Assembly (NCBI GenBank): GCA_031257295.1
Contig: JAIROX010000003.1
Location: 1-64,000 of the forward strand
Direction of reading: 5' to 3'
Length of the DNA stretch: 64,000 nucleotides
Source: Candidatus Nomurabacteria bacterium
GTDB taxonomy: Bacteria > Patescibacteriota > Saccharimonadia > Saccharimonadales > Saccharimonadaceae
Positions 38,739-40,359 of the stretch are shown here, piece after piece. Within the stretch, counting starts at the first letter, position 1. Each line of letters begins with the position of its first letter. The position numbers and the translations under genes are program-made. Below the pieces are notes generated by a model that had not been told where the DNA came from, ran no database searches, and worked only from the letters and a program-made list of their open reading frames with translations.

Positions 38739-38814
38739 TGGTGGCTCCGACTGGACTCGAACCAGTGACACAAGGCTCTTCAGGCCTCTGCTCTACCAAC
38801 TGAGCTACAGAGCC
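38739..38814 (-). tRNA. tRNA-Phe (anticodon GAA)
   Basis: Acceptor GGCTCTG with its partner CGGAGCC (one wobble), D-arm GCTCAGTTGGTAGAGC, anticodon loop CTGAAGA, T-arm CTGGTTCGAGTCCAG, encoded CCA. Confidence 0.95.
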
Positions 38815-38884
38815 GTAACGCAATTACGCCAAGTAATTATATCATGCACAGAACTGTTGTTGCAAAAGTAAACGGCACAGTTGG

Positions 38885-38912
38885 TTGACATTTATGTGGT
38901 GCATGATAAGAT
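38885..38912 (+). promoter_or_regulatory. Promoter of the His leader peptide / hisS
   Basis: TTGACA, 16-bp spacer, TAAGAT with TG one base upstream, ending 7 nt before ATG 38919. The leader peptide is thus predicted to be translated from a leaderless 5' end. Confidence 0.7.
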
Positions 38913-38918
38913 GTAGGT

Positions 38919-38981
38919 ATGAAAACAACCAGTGTTTCTACTTTTGAGCATCATAGCCACCACAAGGTTTCTTTGGGGTAG
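38919..38981 (+). CDS. His-rich leader peptide of hisS
   Basis: A 20-codon ORF reads MKTTSVSTFEHHSHHKVSLG. Codons 11, 12, 14 and 15 are His (CAT CAT, CAC CAC). It lies upstream of the histidyl-tRNA synthetase gene and is followed by alternative hairpins (38972-39027). This is the layout of amino-acid attenuators such as the enterobacterial his leader. Low charged tRNA-His would stall ribosomes on the His codons. Expression is inferred; the match of His codons to the regulated gene is the main evidence. Confidence 0.7.
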   Translation: MKTTSVSTFEHHSHHKVSLG

Positions 38982-39027
38982 CTCTTGGCTTTTCGATAAA
39001 ATGGCAGCTCCCCAAAAGGGAGTTTTT
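38972..39027 (+). promoter_or_regulatory. Putative transcription attenuator of hisS
   Basis: Terminator: CTCCC (39008-39012) with GGGAG (39018-39022), then TTTTT. Antiterminator: TTTGGGG-T-AGCT (38972-38983) pairs with AGCTCCCCAAA (39006-39016), 11 bp with one bulged base, and would sequester the terminator's 5' arm. The antiterminator's 5' arm covers the leader stop codon TAG (38979-38981). A ribosome finishing the peptide would block it, while one stalled on His codons would free it. TATAAT at 39038-39043 might be a second, attenuator-independent promoter. Confidence 0.65.
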
Positions 39028-39060
39028 AAATATATAGTATAATAATTGATAGGAGAAAAT

Positions 39061-40359
39061 ATGAATAAAATATCAACCGCACCACTATCTGGTTTCATGG
39101 AGCTTAGCCCGAGCGATCAGCTAGAATTCGATCGAATTAAAGACGTGATTCGTGCTGAGCATGTTAAGCGCGGTTTTTTACCGATTGATACGCCGCTGAT
39201 TTATCGCAGCGAGGTATTGCTGGCCAAAGCTGGTGGCGAAACCGAAAAGCAGATCTACAGGTTCGACAAGGGGGATAATGACCTGTCGCTTAGGTTTGAC
39301 CTGACTGTGCCGCTAGCGCGCTATGTGGTCGACAAGCAGAGCGAACTGAATTTTCCATTTAAAGTGAGTCAGATTGCCAAAAGCTACCGCGGTGAGCGAG
39401 CGCAGTTTGGGCGTTTTCGTGAGTTCTATCAATGTGATGCCGACGTGATTGGGCGTGGCTCTCTAGACATAAGCTACGATGCTGAGGTTATTGCATTAGT
39501 TGACGCAATTTACAGCCAACTGGAGTTTGGCGATTTTACAATTCGTGTTAATAATCGCAAGCTACTGAGTGGTTTTATCGACGCGATTGGCGCTAGTAGC
39601 AAGGCAGGTGAAATTCTAGGTATCATCGACAAAGCTGCTAAAATCACACCTGAGGAGTTTGAATCTGAAATACGTGGGCTAGGATTGTCTGATGACGGTG
39701 CCGGGCGGCTTAGAGAATTTATCGGCTTGACTGGTGACAATACAGCTATTTTGAATAGTTTAGAGGAGCTGAATATCGATAATGAGGTTTATCGCCAGGG
39801 CCTAAGTGAGCTTAGGGCGGTAATCAGCTTACTGGCTGACATGGGTGTAACTAAGACTGTGCGAGTTGACCTAATGATTGTGCGTGGGTTGGACTATTAC
39901 ACGGGTACGGTGTATGAAACAACCATTAATGGCCGCGAACGCGAGGTCGGTTCAGTGGCTAGCGGCGGACGATATGACGACTTGGCCAGTAATTATTCAA
40001 GCGAAAACTTCCCCGGCGTAGGCGTATCAATTGGCTTGACGCGCTTATTTGCGGCATTAAAAGGTGCTGGATTGGTTGGCGAAACCAAGCAAACGCCAGT
40101 TGATGTGCTAGTATTGCCGTTTAGCTCAGCGGAGTTCGCATATTCTTATAAGTTGGCCGATCAGCTGCGCGCTGAAGGTAAGAATGTTGATGTGCTAACT
40201 GAGGACATGAAGTTTGGCAAAAAAATGGCTTATGCTGATAAAACTGGCGTGGCTAGCGTGGTTGTGGTAGGTGAAAACGAAGTAAAAACTGGCGATACTA
40301 AGATTAAAAATATGAAAACTGGTCAGGAGTCTCAGCTTGATACCTACAGCGACTCCTAA
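39061..40359 (+). CDS. hisS: Histidyl-tRNA synthetase
   Basis: 432 aa. Class II synthetase: motif 2 SYRGERAQFGRFREFYQCD, HisRS-specific GLDYYTGTVYE, motif 3 GGRYDDLASNYS...GVGVSIGLTRL, then an anticodon-binding domain (PVDVLVLPFSSAEFAYSYKLADQL). It charges tRNA-His. ATG 39061 has AGGAGA 6-7 nt upstream; an in-frame TTG at 39046 lacks one. The gene overlaps def by 23 nt. Confidence 0.96.
   Translation: MNKISTAPLSGFMELSPSDQLEFDRIKDVIRAEHVKRGFLPIDTPLIYRSEVLLAKAGGETEKQIYRFDKGDNDLSLRFDLTVPLARYVVDKQSELNFPFKVSQIAKSYRGERAQFGRFREFYQCDADVIGRGSLDISYDAEVIALVDAIYSQLEFGDFTIRVNNRKLLSGFIDAIGASSKAGEILGIIDKAAKITPEEFESEIRGLGLSDDGAGRLREFIGLTGDNTAILNSLEELNIDNEVYRQGLSELRAVISLLADMGVTKTVRVDLMIVRGLDYYTGTVYETTINGREREVGSVASGGRYDDLASNYSSENFPGVGVSIGLTRLFAALKGAGLVGETKQTPVDVLVLPFSSAEFAYSYKLADQLRAEGKNVDVLTEDMKFGKKMAYADKTGVASVVVVGENEVKTGDTKIKNMKTGQESQLDTYSDS

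Follow-up and report, generated by a model that had tools for sequence, protein, structure and literature searches.

Transcription of hisS, the histidyl-tRNA synthetase (HisRS) gene in the window (the whole 64,000-nt stretch of Candidatus Nomurabacteria DNA analysed here), is very probably controlled by a classical ribosome-mediated attenuator. The initial annotation had proposed attenuation of hisS through a leaderless, His-rich leader peptide, and this is supported by the anatomy of the locus, by folds computed for different ribosome positions and by a parallel set of leaders detected across the Saccharibacterial order. The parts it had described are all present: a 20-codon ORF with HHSHH directly upstream of hisS, a terminator of 5-7 bp with U5, a competing 11-bp antiterminator whose 5' arm lies over the stop codon of the peptide, and a -10 box just ahead of the peptide ATG.

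Layout of the hisS leader

The features identified between the divergent tRNA gene and hisS are as follows.

38742-38814, - strand: tRNA-Phe (GAA), from an Rfam tRNA match and the aragorn anticodon GAA; divergent neighbour, and a landmark for the gain of about 200 nt
38885-38890, + strand: -35 hexamer TTGACA, with a 16-nt spacer to the -10
38904-38912, + strand: extended -10, TGA-TAAGAT (hexamer 38907-38912), with TG ahead of the hexamer; consensus matches 10/12
38919-38981, + strand: leader peptide ORF MKTTSVSTFEHHSHHKVSLG, 20 codons; predicted leaderless, its AUG at the predicted 5' end of the transcript
38949-38963, + strand: putative sensing codons CAT CAT AGC CAC CAC (HHSHH), read from the sequence
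38955-38967, + strand: segment 1, 5' arm of the predicted protector hairpin, AGCCACCACAAGG; the Ser-His-His-Lys codons, pairing with 38971-38983 (fold of 38953-38985)
38972-38983, + strand: segment 2, 5' arm of the predicted antiterminator, TTTGGGGtAGCT; spans the stop codon at 38979-38981, with one bulged T
39006-39016, + strand: segment 3, 3' arm of the antiterminator and 5' arm of the terminator, AGCTCCCCAAA; 2:3 has 11 pairs and about -15 kcal/mol
39006-39027, + strand: predicted intrinsic terminator 3:4; stem 39006-39012 / 39018-39024, loop CAAAA, U5 at 39023-39027
39038-39043, + strand: TATAAT, possible weak bypass promoter; no recognisable -35, and absent from the + strand promoters of the scan
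39051-39055, + strand: Shine-Dalgarno (SD) sequence AGGAG of hisS, read from the sequence; outside the hairpins
39061-40359, + strand: hisS, class A histidyl-tRNA synthetase, the putative regulated gene; motifs RGLDYYTG and GGRYDDL in the translation

The leader ATG at 38919 begins with the seventh base past the -10 box, and there is no room for an SD for the leader ORF downstream of the predicted start site; from this promoter geometry the AUG is predicted to lie at or next to the 5' end of the transcript. The TATAAT at 39038, suggested earlier as a way around the attenuator, is present as a hexamer and lacks a -35; it may be a weak bypass promoter.

The cycle that we infer, from start site through translation, stalling and termination to the response to His, would begin with transcription starting on the A of the leader AUG or on a neighbouring base and a 70S ribosome loading as the 5' end emerges. 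With ample charged His-tRNA, the ribosome would reach the stop codon and cover segment 2, and the 3:4 hairpin would halt RNA polymerase before hisS. When charged His-tRNA is scarce, it would stall at HHSHH and cover segment 1, leaving segment 2 free to form the 2:3 antiterminator; transcription would then enter hisS, whose own SD would drive its translation. With no ribosome on the RNA, segment 1, made up of the SHHK codons, could sequester segment 2 and so favour termination.

Folding by ribosome position

The predicted terminator is short, its stem consisting of five strong pairs, or seven with the flanking G-U and A-U (-9.1 to -9.6 kcal/mol). Segment 1 resembles segment 3 (AGCTCCCCAAAAGG), and both pair with segment 2. 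The protector hairpin between segment 1 and 38971-38983, which was absent from the initial annotation, has 11 pairs and -9.6 kcal/mol in the fold and, as modelled, completes the classical 1:2 / 2:3 / 3:4 set. Ribosomes were represented by masking, with a footprint assumed from general knowledge to extend 12 nt past the first base of the codon in the A site. Whichever of the four His codons occupied the A site, the mask for a stalled ribosome gave 2:3 in the predicted folds (-14.1 to -19.5 kcal/mol); the mask extending to the stop-codon footprint gave 3:4 alone (-9.6 kcal/mol), and the unmasked region 38946-39027 gave 1:2 plus 3:4 (-22.7 kcal/mol). In these predicted folds antiterminator and terminator are mutually exclusive and gated by the position of the ribosome. 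The predicted minimum free energy (MFE) structure of the full unmasked leader, 38919-39030, holds 2:3, so the ribosome-free state would not be firmly terminating; both translated states are clear in the modelled folding, and the fold of the naked RNA is ambiguous between states.

The leader peptide might instead act on translation or mRNA stability, as the position of the hisS SD, about 70 nt past the leader stop codon, would allow. There are related cases in mycobacteria, where leaderless short polycysteine ORFs are Cys-responsive attenuators (Canestrari 2020, as cited in PMC13236596) and the cys leaders yielded no conserved terminators (PMC1262725). Such control is very unlikely at the window locus, however, given an intrinsic terminator with U5, an antiterminator that competes exactly with it and covers the stop codon, and an SD that lies outside the hairpins.

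Chance was considered as well: a constitutive promoter could yield a long untranslated leader with a fortuitous His ORF and hairpin, hisS being transcribed from this promoter or from the TATAAT at 39038. Among 20,000 dinucleotide shuffles of 38815-39060, a His ORF (at least four His in six codons) appeared in 4 and a terminator in 26, and none contained a His-rich ORF and then a terminator, in that order. All of the folding states were reproduced by none of 3000 shuffles of 38946-39005 in which the terminator was kept, and by 12 of 3000 synonymous recodings of the leader peptide. Chance is also unlikely because the enriched residue is the amino acid of the downstream gene itself; in addition, the same architecture recurs at hisS across the order (below), and the TATAAT lacks a -35. 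Consistent with a fortuitous origin are the absence of the element from relatives, the shortness of the terminator, the TATAAT and SD just ahead of hisS and the unremarkable fold energy of the whole leader (z = -0.83), this last being expected of a switch as well, because the evidence for one lies in mutually exclusive hairpins. Taken together, a fortuitous arrangement is improbable.

Relation to known leaders

The his leader of E. coli and Salmonella controls biosynthesis, encodes seven consecutive His residues and is led by an SD. The proposed window attenuator has in common with it a His-rich peptide, competing antiterminator and terminator hairpins and, by prediction, a response to charged tRNA-His (his leader described in PMC3896937), and differs in its target, its lack of a leader SD and its lack of an Rfam match. 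The His leader of Bacillus hisS*/hisZ (Naville and Gautheret 2010, PMC2965389) is likewise a predicted His peptide ahead of a HisRS paralogue, with transcription attenuation, but belongs to Firmicutes paralogues; the likeness is one of description, and the passages describing that leader mention no leaderless start. Terminator attenuators with a leader peptide that lacks a ribosome binding site occur at Corynebacterium glutamicum ilvBNC, trp, leuA and aroF (Morbach 2000, as cited in PMC4046766), but these serve the biosynthesis of other amino acids, in Actinobacteria. The classical attenuators of Streptomyces trpS2 and leuS (PMC1262725) are leader-peptide attenuators on aminoacyl-tRNA synthetase genes, as proposed here, but for Trp and Leu and again in Actinobacteria. 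The kind of regulation is therefore a known one, every ingredient being known elsewhere (Corynebacterium, mycobacteria, Bacillus hisS*); what is added here is the phylum, a family of leaders spread over the order and a protector arm made of the SHHK codons. No description of amino-acid attenuation in Saccharibacteria or Patescibacteria was found in the literature (open-licence papers).

Since T-boxes are described in the hisS leaders of Bacillus and lactobacilli (account in PMC2965389), a different sensor, whether T-box, riboswitch or protein-binding attenuator, was weighed too. It is extremely unlikely. No Rfam family was found on 38850-39100 at E up to 5, apart from a snoRNA match on the opposite strand that is put down to chance; the Rfam T-box does not match the window leader, and the enterobacterial His leader family gave nothing at gathering score, either in the window or at eight related loci. 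The leader is, moreover, just about 110 nt long, with hairpins that overlap the peptide codons.

Class A hisS relatives

The window genome has a single HisRS gene, of the type named class A here, and full-length class A matches in the family show 43-69% identity. The initial annotation had looked to related hisS loci for conserved His codons and hairpins. The exact element is missing there: among 48 class A loci a His leader with terminator was found at the window locus alone, the other 47 being without one, and no such leader is present at the hisS locus of G001, a member of the same genus (69% identity). What is kept across the order, at a different HisRS type, is the attenuator logic. Similarity to the leader DNA among 40 relatives was limited to the starts of hisS genes and to a similar-looking terminator that belongs to another gene, and the window copy has no covariation or codon conservation to show because no related class A locus shares the element.

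The window has 246 nt between tRNA-Phe and hisS; where class A loci share this divergent tRNA-Phe, the gap is mostly 40-54 nt, and two class A loci have a gap of 233-235 nt, neither of them carrying the leader. To judge from these sequence comparisons, the window element is either a lineage-specific gain or a radically rewritten copy, the comparison between gain and rewriting being with one same-genus genome.

In 23 of the 48 class A loci hisS starts at most 10 nt from a -10 box, and all 23 genes lack an SD. Because of this combination hisS is probably leaderless in those loci, and leaderless hisS mRNA appears common in the family. TATAAT-like boxes 6-10 nt before the hisS start, with no SD, are seen for example at L008, L022, L036-L045 and L048-L052. 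The AGGAG of the window hisS is to be expected, because a leader precedes the gene.

An order-wide His leader at class B hisS

A second type, class B HisRS, shares about 30% identity with class A. G024, G070, G087, G125, G128 and G161 each carry two strongly divergent HisRS genes, with about 30% mutual identity. In several genomes a peptide of 17 residues, for example MIYRTIHHLHLSPEQVG or MITFVIHHSHLSPNRVR, is encoded ahead of class B hisS; the order-wide leader motif is H-H-x-H-x-x-P-E-x-x-G, which can also be written HHxH(L/I)(S/L)PExxG. Two covariance models of this leader, R1 and R2, were used, the R1 matches making up loci L157-L203 (for example L163:1501-1631 and L157:1501-1630). R1 has matches in 37 of 295 genomes of the family and in 44 of 295 genomes of the order, spread over 34 of 144 genera and many families, a few of the matches being weak. 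Outside the order R2 gave no convincing match; its distant matches there (E 0.003-0.009) were taken as chance. In eight order-wide loci scanned with Rfam at gathering score, tRNA was the sole match.

Nearly all R1 matches encode a peptide of 14-20 residues with at least two His, whose ATG mostly stands 4-8 nt past a TATAAT-like box. The distance from the last His to the stop is usually 24 nt, and 18 nt in the window; the 5' arm of the antiterminator extends across the stop, usually from a point 9-13 nt ahead of it and in the window from 7 nt ahead; and the terminator begins 14-38 nt past the stop, 24 nt in the window. In common with the window leader, the order-wide one has a predicted leaderless His-rich peptide, an antiterminator arm that overlies the stop codon and a terminator shortly past it, and it mostly lies ahead of hisS. 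It differs in a CGCCGGA-type terminator, an LSPERVG-like C terminus of the peptide and, mostly, the other HisRS type. Homology between the two is not claimed; R1 fails to recognise the window leader, and neither R1 nor R2 has a match in the window genome.

The order-wide antiterminator and terminator co-vary: arms taken from one genome pair with a mean of -12.6 kcal/mol, as against -10.1 kcal/mol for swapped arms, and none of 20,000 permutations did as well, in a test where dereplication takes out relatedness in part only. The protector hairpin scored no better in the order-wide family than in shuffled sequence, and for that reason none is claimed there.

No cognate leader with terminator was found upstream of pheS, ileS/valS or thrS/serS/proS at the available loci of 16 genomes, or at leuS in the window, with a detector of a kind that picks up 41 of 47 positive controls; on these results we gave up the idea that synthetases in general have such attenuators. 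Among the synthetase genes compared, attenuation looks specific to His. Within the window genome, 30 of 65 sites with runs of His codons were checked and yielded no second His leader with terminator.

Associated genes and histidine biosynthesis

The first gene after the order-wide leader is mostly class B hisS. Elsewhere the leader is followed first by a HisG-like gene (PF01634, in some cases with a PRA-PH fusion), by a peptidase gene of the M15 or M20 type or by an unknown gene, and hisS often comes behind. HisG or a HisG-like gene comes right after the leader at L168, L170, L176, L184, L190, L194, L196 and L199; Pfam confirms five of these eight, and some carry the PRA-PH fusion. In G215 the leader (L170, G215:C11:46821-48867) is followed by HisG and then histidinol dehydrogenase, and in G325 (leader L189, G325:C1:461619-463671) by a HisRS-like gene (HisZ or HisRS) and then HisG. 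To our knowledge, these bacteria are usually thought to be without His biosynthesis.

In the window genome (96.8% complete) neither HisG nor HisD was found, by family searches that are positive in 13 of 14 control genomes. This Saccharibacterium is therefore probably a His auxotroph, and the initial annotation's view of a reduced-genome bacterium that controls a synthetase instead of biosynthesis agrees with this absence. We infer that His attenuation either is older than His biosynthesis or has survived its loss, and that it remains with hisS. Somewhat less likely than not is a broader reading, in which leaderless attenuation by His leaders would be an old regulon of the order, specific to His and kept beside hisS and its neighbours while biosynthesis was lost; the window lineage, having class A HisRS only, would have rebuilt an equivalent switch de novo in the gap between tRNA-Phe and hisS and used the His codons themselves as its protector arm. 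If the window attenuator is real, reduced, host-dependent cells would sense His shortage through the ribosome and respond with more synthetase, not more histidine, giving a natural reporter of the host's His supply; leaderless initiation would also prove able to work with ribosome-gated attenuation outside Actinobacteria, and might even be favoured for it.

Directly under the order-wide leader there is an M15-type dipeptidase at L169 and L203, an M20 peptidase at L197, and at L165, L171 and L187 a protein of a set sharing AFAxxPWxEVxxC, without a Pfam match (L165 scanned); these peptidases and AFAxxPWxEVxxC proteins perhaps scavenge His from peptides. At L071 and L076 (L057 is also listed), a second promoter-like sequence, TTGCAA...CAACAAT, stands right before an internal in-frame ATG of class B hisS, and such class B loci may make HisRS in two forms, a long one from the attenuated transcript and a short leaderless one.
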